64,000 nt of DNA, from contig NZ_SDMK01000006.1 of assembly GCF_004123295.1 (NCBI RefSeq), forward strand, positions 62,001 through 126,000. Direction: 5' to 3'. This document shows positions 17,560 to 26,822 of this stretch, piece by piece. The position numbers and the translations under genes were made by a program. The notes below the pieces were generated by a model. It was not told the origin of the DNA and did no database searches. It saw nothing but the letters and a program-made list of their open reading frames with translations. This DNA is from Silvibacterium dinghuense (GTDB taxonomy: Bacteria > Acidobacteriota > Terriglobia > Terriglobales > Acidobacteriaceae). Position 1 is the first letter of the stretch, and each line of letters starts with the position of its first letter.

Positions 17560-20199
17560 CTATTCCGCACGCAATGATTCTGTAGGGTGAATCGATGCGG
17601 CCCGACGCGCAGGGATGAAACTGGCAAGGAGAGTTGCTGCGAAGAGCGCCGATATAACCCAGAACCAGGTGCCGGGGTCCCATGGGCGCACCTCGAAAAG
17701 CATGCTCTTAAGGAACATCCCTGCGGCAATGGATCCCAACAGGCCGCCGGTCAGACCCAGGCAGGCAAGCCAGAATGCTTCATGGAGTACAAGCTTGTAA
17801 ATCGAGGATCGCTGTGCTCCAAGAGCAATCCGCAGGCCGATTTCGCGTGTGCGTCTACCGACGGAATAGGCGACCACGCCATACAGTCCGACCGTCCCAA
17901 GCAGAAGCGCCAGCAGGGCGAAGCCGGTAACCAGCGAAGCCGCAGAACGGTGCAGATAGGCGGACTGTGAATTGTCGATCCTGTCCTGCATCGTGTCTTC
18001 GCCGTCTGTGATCAGGCCAGGATCAATCTGGTGCACCGCTGTTTCGATGGCATGCAGAGCCGTCCTCGGAGCGTAAGTGGTGCGCACGGTGATGTAAAAG
18101 TCATTGATCGGAATCTGCCGGAATGGGCTATACACAGCAGCCACGCGGGTCATGTCCAGGGGCCCGTCCTTGAGATCATCGATCACGCCGACAATCTCAT
18201 AGGGGTGCTCGGGGTCGTATTGATCGATCAGGCGCTGTCCGATGGGGTTCTGTCCCGGGAACTCGAGCGCCGCCATCGTCTGATTAATGATGACGACACG
18301 GGGCCTCGAAGCGTCGTCGGCTTCGATAAAGTAGCGTCCATGCAGCAATCGCGCCTGCAGCGTCTCAAAATATCCGGTGCCCGCTATAAGGCTGAGAGCT
18401 TCGTCCCCCAGGCCGTTATAGGCGCGTCCGAAGACACGAAAGTGTCCAAAGGCAGCTTTAAAGGACTCATCGCCTCCCACTGCGAGTAACCCGGAAGAAC
18501 CAATCGATGTGATGCCGGGCAAGTGCGTGACCTGATCGATCACTTTATGCTCGAGCGAAATCTGTTGGGCGTCGGTTGGATTCCCCGGCCGCGCGATATG
18601 CAATACCGCCAGATGATCAGGGCGAAGACCGAGGTCGCTGTGGAGCAGTCGATAGAAACTCTTGGCCAGAAGGCCGGCGCTGGTGAGCATGATGACCGTA
18701 ATCATGAGCTCGACCACAACAAGACTCGTCCCGACTCTCCGCCAGCTTCTATCCGCAGCTCCGCGGCCTCCCTCTGAGAGCCCTTGACGCATGCTTGTAA
18801 ATCTCAGTTGTGCGATCGGAGCCAGGGTGAAGAGCAGAGCACCGAGCGCCATCGCCAGCAATGCAACGCCAAACACGTGCCAGCCGAGATTGAGATGTTC
18901 CAGATACGGCATCGAGCTGAGCATCGGACGGGGAATCAGGCCTAGCATGAGACGGATCAATACCACGTCCAAGGACAGGCCGAGCAGACCTCCCGCGATT
19001 GCCAATACGGATCCTTCGACTGCGAATTGCCGCAGGAGACGGATATGAGACGCGCCAAGCGCGCCGCGTACTGCGATCTCTCTTTTTCGGGCCTCAGCCC
19101 GAACAATCAGCAGGCTGAAGATGTTCACGTATCCGATGAGGGCCAGTAGCAGCGCCCCGCTCAGTAGTGCAAGAAAGGTCGGCCGGATGTCGCCAAGAAT
19201 GAGATGCGTGAGAGGCAGGACCGTAGCACCTCGATCACGATTGGAGGTGGGGAAGGCGAGCGCGATTTGCTTTGCCAGTATGTCGATATCGGCAGCGGCT
19301 GTCGGCAGTGAAATGCCAGGCTTCAGACGCGCAATGCCGTAGTACGGATAACAGAACCGGTTATCGGCGCAAAGCCCATGAATGGTCTTCCAGAACTCTG
19401 CGGATCCAACCGGGGCGAAGTGAAAGTCGGGAGGAAGCACTCCAATGATCTGATAGGCGGCGCCGTCCATCTCGACAGTGCTACCTATCACGGCCTTATC
19501 TGCTCCAAAGCGATGCTGCCATGTTTGATAACTCAGGATTGCAGTCTGTGGCGCGCTTGCCAGGTCTTCTCCCGTCCTGAAGTCGCGGCCGAGGAATGGC
19601 GATACACCAAGCGTCTTAAAAAAGCCGTCGCTGACAGATGCGACCGATATCTCTTCCATCCCGGTCTGATTCTTCAACGTAACGCGTTCGGGGCGATACA
19701 CGTTGAGCGAGCTGAAAACATGATTGTGTGCCTTCCATGCCTGATAGTCGGGGAACGATAAGTGAAATCGATCGCCAACGGAGGGGCGCTCAAAAAGAGC
19801 TACCAGCCGAGACGGCTGGTGATAAGGCAGCGGTTTGATGAAGGCTGCATCGACAAAGGCAAAAATGGTCGTGCTTGCCGCGACGCCAAAGGCAAAGACG
19901 ACGATGGCAGTCATTGTGAAGCTGGGGCTGCGGCGCAGCTGGCGCAAGGCAAAGCGAAGATCGTGGAACAGGTCCTCGAGCAGGCGCGTCCCGCGGGCAT
20001 CGCGGCACTCCTGGCGTACCTGTTCCATGCCGCCGATTGCAATCTGGGCACGACGTTTCGCTTCTGCGGGGCTCGCGCCACGGGCCATATGCTTCTTGAT
20101 CTCATGCTCGAGGTGAAATTGCAGCTCTTCATCCAACTCGTTCTCGACGCGCTGGCGGCTGATAAGGGAGCGGAGGCGATAGATCAGGTCAGTCAGCAT
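17560..20199 (-). CDS. ADOP-family permease with N-terminal prefix domain
   Basis: 879 aa. Residues 1-85 form the helical prefix typical of ADOP proteins (ENELDEELQFHLEHE, ASPAEAKRRAQIAIGG). The duplicated FtsX/MacB permease plan follows, starting FRFALRQLRRSPSFT-like (seen as LRFALRQLRRSPSF) and the first membrane helix AIVVFAFGVAASTTIFAFV. A periplasmic domain and three-helix bundle come next, then a repeat of the set. The gene starts 8 bp after the PadR regulator stop, so the two are co-transcribed; PadR-ADOP pairing is common in Acidobacteria. No ATPase partner is nearby. Transport substrate is unknown. Confidence 0.93.
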   Translation of the reverse strand: MLTDLIYRLRSLISRQRVENELDEELQFHLEHEIKKHMARGASPAEAKRRAQIAIGGMEQVRQECRDARGTRLLEDLFHDLRFALRQLRRSPSFTMTAIVVFAFGVAASTTIFAFVDAAFIKPLPYHQPSRLVALFERPSVGDRFHLSFPDYQAWKAHNHVFSSLNVYRPERVTLKNQTGMEEISVASVSDGFFKTLGVSPFLGRDFRTGEDLASAPQTAILSYQTWQHRFGADKAVIGSTVEMDGAAYQIIGVLPPDFHFAPVGSAEFWKTIHGLCADNRFCYPYYGIARLKPGISLPTAAADIDILAKQIALAFPTSNRDRGATVLPLTHLILGDIRPTFLALLSGALLLALIGYVNIFSLLIVRAEARKREIAVRGALGASHIRLLRQFAVEGSVLAIAGGLLGLSLDVVLIRLMLGLIPRPMLSSMPYLEHLNLGWHVFGVALLAMALGALLFTLAPIAQLRFTSMRQGLSEGGRGAADRSWRRVGTSLVVVELMITVIMLTSAGLLAKSFYRLLHSDLGLRPDHLAVLHIARPGNPTDAQQISLEHKVIDQVTHLPGITSIGSSGLLAVGGDESFKAAFGHFRVFGRAYNGLGDEALSLIAGTGYFETLQARLLHGRYFIEADDASRPRVVIINQTMAALEFPGQNPIGQRLIDQYDPEHPYEIVGVIDDLKDGPLDMTRVAAVYSPFRQIPINDFYITVRTTYAPRTALHAIETAVHQIDPGLITDGEDTMQDRIDNSQSAYLHRSAASLVTGFALLALLLGTVGLYGVVAYSVGRRTREIGLRIALGAQRSSIYKLVLHEAFWLACLGLTGGLLGSIAAGMFLKSMLFEVRPWDPGTWFWVISALFAATLLASFIPARRAASIHPTESLRAE

Positions 20200-20207
20200 C
20201 GGTATCT

Positions 20208-20543
20208 CTATGCAAGGGTTAGGATGTGCTCGACAGCGGTCGTCAGTTTGCGCCAGGCAGCAGTTTCATTCGCAAGCTGCTTCCGTCCTGTTGCACTCAA
20301 TTCGTAATACTTGGCGCGGCGATTGTTTTCGCTGGTTGCCCAGTTCGCTTTGATCCATCCGCGACGTTCCAGGCGGTGCAGTGCAGGGTACAACGAGCCC
20401 TGCTGCACCTGTATTACGTCGTGGGACAGCTGCTGTAGCCGCTCTGAAATAGCCCATCCGTGCATCGGTTCGAGAGCGATCGCCTTGAGGATCAAAAAAT
20501 CGAGGGTGCCTTGCGGAAGCTCGATACGTTTTTCTGTCACCAT
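20208..20543 (-). CDS. PadR-family transcriptional regulator
   Basis: 111 aa, the usual size for short (subfamily 2) PadR proteins. The winged helix is clear: LPQGTLDFLILKAIALEPMH, GWAISERLQQLS, then QQGSLYPALHRLERRGWI and KYYELSATGRKQL, followed by a short dimerisation helix. PadR proteins are repressors relieved by small ligands, often controlling efflux. It is the first gene of a unit with the ADOP permease (gap 8 bp). It probably controls its own promoter; a 9-bp inverted repeat lies just upstream. Confidence 0.95.
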   Translation of the reverse strand: MVTEKRIELPQGTLDFLILKAIALEPMHGWAISERLQQLSHDVIQVQQGSLYPALHRLERRGWIKANWATSENNRRAKYYELSATGRKQLANETAAWRKLTTAVEHILTLA

Positions 20544-21965: not shown

Positions 21966-22913
21966 TTAAGCCTTGGCCGCTTCCAGGTCGATGGTGGACT
22001 GGAAATAATCGAGGCTGAGGCGAAGGCCGGTCTCGAGGTCGATCTTCGGCTCCCAGCCGAAAAGGCGCTGCGCCTTGGAGATATCCGGTTTGCGCTGCAT
22101 GGGGTCGTCCTGCGGCAGCGGACGATAGACGATCTTGCTCTTCGATCCGGTTACCTTGAGCACGGCATGAGCGCACTCGAGGATGGTCCACTCGTGCGGG
22201 TTGCCGATGTTGACCGGGGTGTGCTCATCGGAGCGTGAGAGGCCGAGAATGCCGGCGATCTCATCTGCGACGTAGCAGAAGCTGCGTGTCTGGTCGCCTT
22301 CGCCATAGACCGTCAGGTCTTCACCTTTGAGAGCCTGGACGACGAAGTTAGAGATCACGCGGCCATCGTTCTTCTGCAGGCGCGGCCCATAGGTATTGAA
22401 GATGCGGACCAGGCGTGTATCGACATTGTAGTAGCGGTGATAAGCCATGGTCAGGGCTTCAGAGAAGCGCTTGGCCTCGTCATAGACCGAGCGTGGACCG
22501 ATGGGGTTCACATTGCCCCAGTAGTCCTCGGTCTGCGGATGAACCGCCGGATCGCCGTAGCACTCGGAGGTAGAGGCGTGAAGGAACTTTGCGCCGTACT
22601 TCTTCGCTACCTCGAGGGCGTTGCGGGTTCCGTCGGAGCCGACCGCAAGCGTCTCCACGCCGAGGCGGGAGTAGTCGACCGGACTGGCCGGCGATGCGAA
22701 GTTGAAGACGTATTCGACGGCGCCGGGATCGAAAGCCCGGCAAATATCGAGTTCGCGGAACTCGAAGCGGGACTCATTCTCGAGATGACGAAGATTCGCG
22801 AGTGAGCCGGTGCAAAGATTGTCTACGCCGATGATGCTGTTGCCATCGGCAAGCAGGGCATCGGCAAGGTGAGATCCTAGAAAACCGGCGACTCCGGTGA
22901 TGAGTATGCGCAT
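21966..22913 (-). CDS. uxs: UDP-glucuronate decarboxylase (UDP-xylose synthase), SDR family
   Basis: 315 aa from the ATG at 22913, the point where the Rossmann fold starts. The NAD motif GVAGFLG is at residues 7-13 and the catalytic Tyr/Lys pair is Y144/K148 (SVYDEAK). [11 protein letters not shown], the [11 protein letters not shown] stretch and [10 protein letters not shown] are features of UDP-glucuronate decarboxylases rather than of epimerases. The enzyme turns UDP-glucuronate into UDP-xylose plus CO2. Its substrate would be made by the UDP-glucose dehydrogenase encoded at 40229. It stands apart from other polysaccharide genes. A close relative (UDP-apiose/xylose synthase or a plain epimerase) is the main alternative. 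Confidence 0.85.
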
Positions 22914-23100
22914 GGGCTCTTTTGTGAAACCTGATCGAAAATATGGTGTACGTTGGCACGGCGGCGAGGGCGCTCGTGGAAGGGGGAGCGAAAGATCAGG
23001 GGTGTTTCTTCTATTGAGTGTAAGAAACGGGCGGAGAAAGAGCAATCACGGAACATCCTGCTGGGCGGCATGACAAGCAGGACTATGGCAGGCTGAAGAC

Positions 23101-24896: not shown

Positions 24897-26588
24897 CTAC
24901 CACTGCGACCAGTCATGGCGTAACAGGACCCAGAGTGTGAGCAGCAGGTTGCTGGTCGCGTGAGCGACAACGGCATCGCCGATGCGGCCGCGCCAGCGTG
25001 CTGCACCGGCGAAGGCAAGGCCAGCCAGGATGCCGGCCAGCCAGTGGCTGCCATGAAGAATGCCGAAGATCGCTGACGAGAGCAGGATGGCAAGCGGGGT
25101 GAGTTTGGAGAAGGAAATCTGTTCGAACTCCCGGCGCATCAGGCGTCGCGCAAGATAACCCCGAAAGGCCAGCTCTTCGGCGATGGGCACGGTAACAATA
25201 GCTGCCGCGGCGCGAAATGCGATCCAGGTAGAGCGGGCGCTGGGGGATAACGCGGCCAGATCCGATCCGAGACGGCCGACATCCGGATGAGACCAGAACT
25301 CCGGAGCGATCCAGAGGAGGAAGATGCCTGTGCCGGCGAGCGGTGCAAGCCATCCGAAGCTCCAGCGCAGCTTCCGATACTCAGTGCGGAAGAGCCATAG
25401 GGCGATGATTGCGGCAAGAAAGCGCAATGGATAGAGCCATTCGAAATAACCCGAGGCCGAGCGGGAGAGAAACGACGCGGCAAGAATTGCGAGAAAGGGA
25501 ACAAGGTATGCGGCGGTCGCGGCCGATTCTCTGCTCGCATGGATCTCGTTCTGCGTAGAAAGCGAGCCGGACAACATCGAAACAGGCGCGGCCGGAGCAG
25601 CCGCAGCCACGGGTGATTTCTGAAACCAGGCAATGCGGCTGGTGGCCATCGAAAAGGCGAGAGAGACGAGGGTAAAGGCAATCCAGCCTGCCTGAGAGTG
25701 AAAGCCGACCATGGCAATGGATGGGGCTCCCGCATTGCCGATGAGGATGATCACGGCGATGCGCACGATATTGAGAAGCCAGACGGCAACAAGTGCGAGC
25801 GGGATAAGGAGCAGTGCCTGGGGAAAGCGTGTCTCGCGGCGCAGATACCAGAGCCATATGCAGGTAAAGATGAGGACCAGTCCCAGGCCCTCGATGCCCG
25901 AGCACTGTTCGGCGATGGTGACGGCGAAGCGAGGAGTGCCGATCACGAAGGTCGCCGGATTGACGATGACGCCGGGCAACAGGGCATGCAGCAGCAGGTG
26001 AACGCAGTGGAAGGCCGTGATCTGCAGGATGCGGCCGTGTGCCAGGGCGGAAGTATCCCATAGCTGCTGCGTGGGTCGGCGGATCAGCGCCGCGGCGAGG
26101 CCGGCAACGATTGAGACGAACCAGAGCGGGCTGGTCTCTCGAAGGGCTCGTATGGACGCGCGCAGGGGGATACAGGCAAAGAGCAGCAGCACCATGGAGC
26201 AGGAGACGACAATCGTCGCGACGACATGCGCAGGCAGCGCATACGGGCGGTACTTCGGACCGCGTGGAGCTATCCAGTACATCAGATAGATGGAAAGGAT
26301 TCCCGCAAGGTGCCAGAAGAACCAGGCGCGGCGAAAGGGAAGCGGCTCGCGGAGGAGCTTCAGCCGACGGCGTCCGAGTCCTGCGAAAACGGCAAAGGCC
26401 ACGATGGCGAACGGCGCGATCACCCCGAAGATGGGAGCGCGGCGAGGGACGCTCGCCAGCAGAAGGCAATCCGCAGCGAGCAATGACGCCAACAGATAGA
26501 GCCGGCCAAGGAAATATCGTGGCGGAGAGAATCGCGGCCTTGACGGAGAGTGATGAGGAGAGGAAGAGATCTCTGTCAAGGCACGCAT
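24897..26588 (-). CDS. xrtE: Exosortase E fused to CAAX-type (CPBP) protease
   Basis: 563 aa from the ATG at 26588 (a TTG three codons earlier is also open; neither has a good ribosome binding site). The N-terminal two-thirds is a polytopic exosortase, with its cysteine in AEQCSGIEGLGL (C229), arginine in LLNIVRIAVI (R276) and histidine in GFHSQAGWIAF (H297), the transpeptidase triad. The C-terminal about 200 residues are a CPBP intramembrane protease: EELAFR (E471, E472, R476), FGILH (H512) and HATSN (H543, N547). This fusion defines the exosortase E/protease of VPEID-CTERM systems. It would cleave and transfer C-terminally tagged proteins at the inner membrane. The tagged substrate is encoded 30 bp upstream. 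Confidence 0.93.
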   Translation of the reverse strand: MRALTEISSSPHHSPSRPRFSPPRYFLGRLYLLASLLAADCLLLASVPRRAPIFGVIAPFAIVAFAVFAGLGRRRLKLLREPLPFRRAWFFWHLAGILSIYLMYWIAPRGPKYRPYALPAHVVATIVVSCSMVLLLFACIPLRASIRALRETSPLWFVSIVAGLAAALIRRPTQQLWDTSALAHGRILQITAFHCVHLLLHALLPGVIVNPATFVIGTPRFAVTIAEQCSGIEGLGLVLIFTCIWLWYLRRETRFPQALLLIPLALVAVWLLNIVRIAVIILIGNAGAPSIAMVGFHSQAGWIAFTLVSLAFSMATSRIAWFQKSPVAAAAPAAPVSMLSGSLSTQNEIHASRESAATAAYLVPFLAILAASFLSRSASGYFEWLYPLRFLAAIIALWLFRTEYRKLRWSFGWLAPLAGTGIFLLWIAPEFWSHPDVGRLGSDLAALSPSARSTWIAFRAAAAIVTVPIAEELAFRGYLARRLMRREFEQISFSKLTPLAILLSSAIFGILHGSHWLAGILAGLAFAGAARWRGRIGDAVVAHATSNLLLTLWVLLRHDWSQW

Positions 26589-26618
26589 CGAGAGCAAAAG
26601 CAGAAGAAACCCAGCGGC

Positions 26619-26822
26619 TTACTTACGCCGCCGGGCGCGAAAAACAGTAAGGGTGCCAGCAAGCAGGGTAATGCCGCTGACAGCAAGGCCAGGATCGATC
26701 TCTGGAGCGGTTGGAGTGGGAGGCTGAGGATTCTGCCACCACGGTGGGTCGGCATGAGCGGCCGTGCTGGCGCCGAGCATGAGGCCCAGGGCTAGGAGCG
26801 ATGGTTTGAGAAATCTTTTCAT
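26619..26822 (-). CDS. VPEID-CTERM sorted micro-protein, substrate of exosortase E
   Basis: 67 aa from the ATG at 26822 (a TTG four codons earlier is possible). Three parts: a signal peptide (residues 1-24, ending AAHA); a proline/tryptophan-rich stretch (DPPWWQNPQPPTPT); and a C-terminal sorting tag. The tag is APEIDPG (39-45, variant of VPEID), a hydrophobic helix (about 47-60) and the basic end RARRRK. It is the classic tripartite sorting signal. After removal of both ends only about 15 residues would remain. The stop is 30 bp before the exosortase start, so the two form an operon. Role of the mature peptide is unknown. Confidence 0.92.
   Translation of the reverse strand: MKRFLKPSLLALGLMLGASTAAHADPPWWQNPQPPTPTAPEIDPGLAVSGITLLAGTLTVFRARRRK

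Follow-up and report, generated by a model that had tools for sequence, protein, structure and literature searches.

The window, by which we mean the whole 64,000-nt stretch of Silvibacterium dinghuense DNA analysed here, carries on its minus strand the gene xrtE, encoding a fusion of an exosortase E with a CPBP intramembrane protease, and, upstream of it, a gene for a 67-residue protein with a C-terminal sorting tag. Coordinates throughout are positions within the window, and G000 designates the genome to which it belongs. We tentatively read the pair as a dedicated exosortase E/VPEID-CTERM-type system that would yield a modified membrane lipid, or another modified envelope component, instead of displaying a protein. 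There is next to no cargo to display, which makes the acceptor side the likelier purpose of the reaction. The exosortase E family, its pairing with the tag and the fusion itself were already known.

The small protein is organised as MKRFLKPSLLALGLMLGASTAAHA - DPPWWQNPQPPTPT - APEIDPGLAVSGITLLAGTLTVFRARRRK, with predicted signal-peptide cleavage after AHA. It is real: Silvibacterium bohemicum (L037, retrieved a second time as L004) has a 61-63% identical protein at the equivalent position, and there QueG-like and cold-shock-like open reading frames (ORFs; named by eye in L004) lie beyond xrtE in the order seen in the window. A PEID-type motif, a helix, a basic end and a gene beside exosortase E are VPEID-CTERM traits; the tag probably works like a VPEID-CTERM domain, yet it is not scored as a member of TIGR04161, the curated VPEID-CTERM model (cut-off 33 bits), which left it unmatched even at E 10. 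Over 47 xrtE genomes this model matched 24 at E 0.01 and six above its cut-off, with no match in G000. The only library matches of the protein were to LPXTG-type models, together with a weak PFE-CTERM match under its own cut-off. Identity as an LPXTG anchor was rejected: the score against TIGR01167 (18.3 bits, cut-off 15.9) stems from residues 44-67, that is, the helix and basic tail, and the motif is APEID and not LPXTG. PF00746 stayed below its cut-off.

A profile of the whole tag protein retrieved a single protein from G000 (E 1.3e-24; the next best was at 0.73), and so did a tag-only profile (E up to 0.05). The own tag scored 1.5e-14 with the tag-only profile, A4, being itself among the members of A4. 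PF07589 (PEP-CTERM) gave no match in G000 at E 0.01. With one exosortase match and one detectable tag protein in the genome, the system is a dedicated one, and the substrate is very small, as the preliminary description had held. Other tagged proteins of G000 as the real substrates, a possibility raised there, were looked for with the tag profiles, TIGR04161 and PF07589, and none was found.

The same description had the coordinates, the strand, both protein lengths and the 30-bp gap from the tag-gene stop to xrtE right, and its identification of an exosortase E/CPBP fusion with two catalytic sets is borne out. XrtE scores above the cut-off of TIGR04162 (exosortase E/protease, VPEID-CTERM system; Table 1) and above those of PF09721 and PF02517. 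C229, R276, H297, E471, E472, R476 and H543 are invariant across 65 aligned XrtE sequences, and at least 90% of these sequences retain H512. An XrtE copy at a contig edge (L005; G005 C405) has Gln at the H512 position and retains the other catalytic residues. The CPBP half also accounts for a match to TIGR03008 (short name pepcterm_CAAX; 114.3 bits, cut-off 81.05), a family which we take to accompany ordinary exosortase systems. The myxosortase models NF040914 and NF033192 remained below threshold, at 39.2 bits (cut-off 100) and 39.8 bits (cut-off 75), respectively. A structure model of XrtE was built on the 65-row alignment; comparing its fold with PDB entries yielded nothing at E 0.001, nor did the XrtE profile match the sequences of solved structures.

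Table 1. Positions of the tag gene, xrtE and their parts in the window.
Feature	Position	Strand	Evidence
Tag protein, 67 aa, likely substrate	26619..26822	minus	homologue in L037/L004; sole tag-profile match in genome
Predicted signal peptide, residues 1-24, MKRFLKPSLLALGLMLGASTAAHA	26751..26822	minus	residue rule; identity 0.46 vs 0.22 shuffled
Core, residues 25-38 (14 aa), DPPWWQNPQPPTPT	26709..26750	minus	unconserved, 0.29 vs 0.26 shuffled
Sorting tag, residues 39-67 (APEID motif, hydrophobic helix, RARRRK)	26622..26708	minus	identity 0.64 vs 0.22 shuffled
XrtE, 563-aa exosortase E/CPBP intramembrane protease fusion	24897..26588	minus	TIGR04162 199.1 bits, cut-off 150; model mean pLDDT 87.5
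Exosortase half (PF09721)	25635..26411	minus	C229 (25902-25904), R276 (25761-25763), H297 (25698-25700); invariant, 65 sequences
CPBP/Rce1-like protease half (PF02517)	24942..25226	minus	E471/E472 (25173-25178), H512 (25053-25055), H543 (24960-24962)

The preliminary description had proposed the core between signal peptide and tag, estimated at about 15 residues, as the functional product, and had named its conservation as a check; the core turned out not to be conserved. In 12 tag proteins of the nearest loci (10 hand-picked loci, two of which supply two proteins each), mean pairwise identity was 0.29 for the core against 0.26 when shuffled, whereas the tag reached 0.64 and the signal peptide 0.46, each against 0.22; core lengths ran from 5 to 49 residues. 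Since the core hardly departs from shuffled sequence while its two flanks are conserved, it is a spacer at most, and the proposed product is not the conserved part of the protein. Moreover, of 91 tag ORFs next to xrtE, 63 have the PE motif beginning 19-24 residues past the start of the signal-peptide hydrophobic stretch, the remainder extending up to 68; the 91 are those in which such a stretch could be recognised, after exclusion of the own protein and of three loci duplicating others. Those 63 ORFs of relatives carry little or no cargo. In this count and the next, the boundaries of signal peptide and core are set by rule and not by a trained predictor. By a residue rule, the length from signal-peptidase site to motif has a median of 7 and a range of 0-52 (103 ORFs, duplicates included). 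Minimal cores are found, for instance, in L082 (...LLA-SV-PEID) and L065 (...AMA-GFTA-PEID). Within the class of G524, the core of L167 is minimal (...AFA-ISGGSV-PEIS), two others have about 30-35 residues, and that of G524 is longer.

On a quick XrtE tree of 56 rows, 21 of whose 62 inner branches are weak, short and long cores switch at least 8 times. "Short" meant a span up to 24, and two or three borderline rows, such as L097 (25) and L112 (26, 27), were scored long despite having almost no core, so that the count of 8 is perhaps slightly high. Both catalytic sets of XrtE are kept in the 65 aligned sequences, core present or absent. This, together with the TIGR03008 match of the CPBP half, leaves unsupported the earlier suggestion that trimming is the reason for the second protease. 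Tag copies number up to 6 at one locus.

The tag is tied to xrtE. At 1e-25 or better, XrtE was found in 4 of 100 genomes comprising the own genome and relatives (G000 included). At the same level it was found in 2 of 396 genomes sampled from the phylum, G000 being one of the two, and in 4 of 385 genomes from the class to which G524 belongs, counting G524 itself. Among the 100 genomes, tag matches reaching 1e-8 are confined to G000, G006 and G074, in which the fusion is present, and G077, in which it is absent; G005, with xrtE at a contig edge, gave no tag match at that level. In G077, the orphan tag gene is cargo-free (L150/L172, C32:21508-21594) and lies beside a LysR-like ORF (named by eye); this genome has a separate exosortase-like match and a separate CPBP-like match. 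The related loci are the best 80 of 188 confirmed ones from a scan of named genomes with two peptide patterns, which does not cover all exosortase E, and five loci from genome searches, of which four are repeats, bring them to 85. An initial tag profile, used at E up to 0.5, matched ORFs in 74 of these 85 loci, or 73 after removal of L047, which lacks the motif. Among the 12 other loci, a pattern picks out tag-like ORFs in L095 and L114, in L005/L054, L046, L050 and L084 xrtE is near a contig end, and L106 and L107, taken up below, have full flanks.

The tag-only profile (29 columns) matched in 45/45 xrtE genomes at E 0.05, partly by construction and with G483 repeating G006, and in 31 of 33 further genomes at 1e-5. 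Built from tags beside xrtE, mostly on tiny proteins, profile A4 may under-find larger tagged proteins; with that limit, 87 of the 99 strongest genome-wide rows fall in frames of at most 130 aa and 7 in frames of at least 200 aa (nine weaker rows, with E above 5e-6, and the G483 duplicate were dropped). Four of the 7 carry real cargo (G507, G511 two, G520), and three are long open frames with a tiny gene at their end (G514 twice, G522). Larger tag frames also occur in L199 (293 aa), in L213 (256 aa) and, among the weaker rows, in G525 (276 aa). An ordinary cargo of ~150-200 aa was observed at L158, L159, L160, L161 and L162 (G507, G511, G520, G525). Because the tag does occur on cargo of this size, the exosortase E class can presumably sort proteins. 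XrtE-tag frames have a median of 77 aa (60 rows, 26 genomes), as against 275.5 aa for PEP-CTERM frames among the 150 matches listed for the same genomes, 19 of which have PEP-CTERM matches, up to 67 per genome, and 7 none. Many tag genes are not next to the enzyme: of 20 regions around tag matches, 16 have no XrtE within the stretch (~5 kb to either side, or as far as the contig reaches). As many as four tag genes stand in tandem away from xrtE (L178), G491 has 8 at three places, and at L187 XrtE is 4 kb from the tag gene.

Hydroxylase, sugar-nucleotide epimerase and, in Planctomycetes, SdrD-type genes recur as neighbours, in a survey that relied on a greedy choice of long ORFs, missed some genes (e.g. 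the L102 hydroxylase) and put a minority of clusters to a family search. The first of these families is the one that points to lipids. A PF04116 fatty-acid-hydroxylase gene directly adjoins tag genes in 8 of the 17 loci examined away from xrtE. Across 45 genomes, 14 of the 54 PF04116 genes detected at 1e-12 are within 1 kb of a tag cluster, against 0.044 expected from genome length, the link having first been noticed in some of the genomes where it was later counted. In 33 other genomes, with hydroxylases found by profile A6 at 1e-8, 3 of 41 tag clusters are within 1 kb of one (L201, L203, L207), a figure given without a chance value. The L203 stretch also ends in an xrtE fragment; the hydroxylase of L207 (G921 C15) is spread over several overlapping frames and looks broken or mis-assembled. 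Among xrtE loci, 8 have the hydroxylase link, with 7 changes on the tree. Same-strand runs are seen in L093 (tags-xrtE-tags-hydroxylase), L112 (xrtE-tag-tag-hydroxylase) and the gammaproteobacterial L116 (tag-tag-xrtE-hydroxylase). L171 (G577) has a tag-hydroxylase run with xrtE divergent, its tag being recognised by pattern and eye and missed by the tag profile.

These observations can be arranged in the following scheme. The tiny tag protein would enter by the Sec route, and signal peptidase and the exosortase half, whose Cys229 would act near the PEID motif at the outer face, would cut it at either end. What remains, a few residues, would then be transferred to an acceptor, for which a membrane lipid is the likeliest candidate. 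A second step on the membrane side, for instance removal of the severed helix or completion of the product, may fall to the CPBP half, and in several lineages an enzyme of the fatty-acid-hydroxylase family, a distant relative of OlsE, might tailor the lipid. A broader version, which we consider doubtful, is that exosortase E in many lineages is not a protein-display machine: the cargo-free tag peptides would be disposable donors of a few residues that modify a membrane lipid, and, with the OlsE-like hydroxylases and the dispersed tandem tag genes, would make up an unrecognised lipid-tailoring (peptidyl-lipid) pathway.

Several points weigh against a lipid product. Its cleavage and transfer steps, and the product itself, are what we infer from sequence. 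The single PF04116 gene of G000 is on another contig (C1:1568769), unlinked to the window locus. Only 14 of 66 tag clusters have a hydroxylase within 1 kb, all in Acidobacteriota-named genomes; elsewhere the link was observed only at L116 and L171. At other loci than the runs listed above, hydroxylase and tag genes are convergent, from overlapping ends to gaps of ~70 bp, so that the pair is often not arranged as an operon. Six hydroxylases, that of G000 included, scored 61.5-89.0 bits against OlsE (NF052566; cut-off 475), which suggests that the tested PF04116 proteins are only distant kin of this ornithine-lipid hydroxylase. L106 and L107 have full flanks and xrtE without an adjacent tag gene, tag matches occurring elsewhere in their genomes. 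Conversely, G077 has a tag gene without the fused XrtE. The real cargo, of ~150-200 aa, borne by the tag in some gammaproteobacterial genomes, and the polysaccharide-type neighbours taken up below, belong to the same list.

The strongest rivals are a working role for the tag protein itself and a role in a polysaccharide layer. According to the first, the tag protein would be a small membrane hairpin that is itself the working part, as a regulator, as a subunit or pseudo-substrate of XrtE, or as the source of a released C-terminal helix, with processing serving only as an on/off switch. The conservation of both hydrophobic segments and not of the loop would be expected from such a hairpin, and so would the narrowly set span of the 63 ORFs and the multiplication of tag copies (up to 6 per locus and 8 in one genome). 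The gammaproteobacterial tags on ordinary cargo fit a processed signal better than a subunit, and we judge this explanation somewhat improbable.

According to the second, which we think unlikely, this is an ordinary exosortase system tied to exopolysaccharide (EPS), in which a small protein or Pro-rich linker is anchored to, or aids, the polysaccharide layer, much as for PEP-CTERM but on a smaller scale. XrtE is homologous to exosortases, and PEP-CTERM proteins tie EPS to the surface in other bacteria (PMC12188702). Of 84 loci, five have a sugar-nucleotide epimerase/dehydratase gene within a few kb of xrtE, a minority for which no chance level was computed. The window is one of the five (gene at 21966-23045; PF16363, 167.3 bits), and in L056 and L095 the gene is adjacent. 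L187 (3073-9042; near xrtE of L060) has ABC-2 transporter and UDP-glucose dehydrogenase-type genes around its tag gene. Most tag ORFs, however, have no linker that could be anchored.

In the view of the preliminary description, the two proteases would release or anchor the core peptide, which would act as a signal or at the surface. The core is indeed short and Pro/Trp-rich in both the window and S. bohemicum, and two alphaproteobacterial cores are also rich in Trp and Gly. The near-shuffled identity, the scarcity of cores in the relatives and the repeated switches on the tree nevertheless make this very improbable, and a family search that covered a minority of the clusters neighbouring xrtE brought up neither receptors nor peptide exporters.

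A related large gene follows xrtE on the same strand at five planctomycete loci (L089, L096, L104, L109, L115; Planctomycetota). Both of the two proteins put to Pfam have SdrD_B/SpaA repeats, and no sorting tag was found at the end of any of the five, two of which end at a contig boundary. That such a giant protein receives the stub is the least probable explanation of all, being restricted to Planctomycetes and having no such gene beside the window locus.

Other features of the window may be mentioned briefly. An inverted repeat capable of forming a hairpin, with a GC-rich stem and a T-rich tail, is located at 26609-26636, between the tag gene and xrtE, and overlaps the tag-gene stop; the scan found 3 hairpins where 2.3 were expected. 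A terminator at this place that would raise the level of the substrate was considered and rejected, as folding after the stop of 150 tag genes was no better than in the control (p = 0.27; overlapping fetches were pooled, and some loci were counted more than once). At 17560-20543, on the minus strand, there is an 879-aa permease-like protein, with a 111-aa protein resembling a transcriptional regulator just upstream (both named by eye).

Sortase-type enzymes are explained by the proteins that they display, and where the usual substrate offers hardly anything for display, some other product has to be sought. This conserved exosortase E branch is found in records of Acidobacteriota, Planctomycetota and Proteobacteria. 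A cargo-free stub would be small enough for lipidomics, which would make the exosortase acceptor, to our knowledge still unidentified, directly testable, and the OlsE-like hydroxylases linked in some relatives indicate which lipids deserve a first look. As one precedent for a tie between sortases and lipids, Craig et al. (2011) reportedly linked N-acyl amino acid synthases to PEP-CTERM/exosortase. The literature searched contains no report of cargo-free substrates, of tag genes in tandem or distant from xrtE, or of a hydroxylase link, and earlier mention elsewhere is possible.

Compared with known systems, the locus is closest to the TIGR04162/TIGR04161 system, with which it shares a fusion enzyme above the curated cut-off, both active sites and an adjacent small protein with a PEID-type tag; it differs in that its own tag is not recognised by TIGR04161. 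Exosortase-CAAX-protease fusions have been on record since 2006, and exosortases share Cys, Arg and His residues resembling the sortase triad (PMC1569441). The tripartite tag and these residues are likewise common to the PEP-CTERM/exosortase system (PMC1569441), in which, however, the tag is on larger frames (the median given above for the matches listed), while the XrtE tag is on tiny ones. A further precedent is archaeosortase ArtA, which belongs to the same superfamily: in some species its gene lies beside genes for lipid head-group enzymes, and two of these, PssA and PssD, are needed for lipid attachment to the ArtA substrate (PMC7157517). The ArtA substrate is a large S-layer glycoprotein, whereas here the partner is a PF04116 protein and there is little or no cargo. 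The dedicated pairs of rhombosortases and myxosortases, such as MrtJ with one JDVT-CTERM protein, also consist of one enzyme and one adjacent target with a tripartite C-terminal tag, and MrtJ shares the CPBP protease type with the C-terminal part of XrtE (PMC3237569, PMC11980579). These pairs belong to other catalytic families or have other tags: the CPBP half of XrtE falls well short of the Mrt_core cut-off of 100 bits, and the own tag contains no Cys. The window locus is a dedicated system in the sense of PMC3237569.

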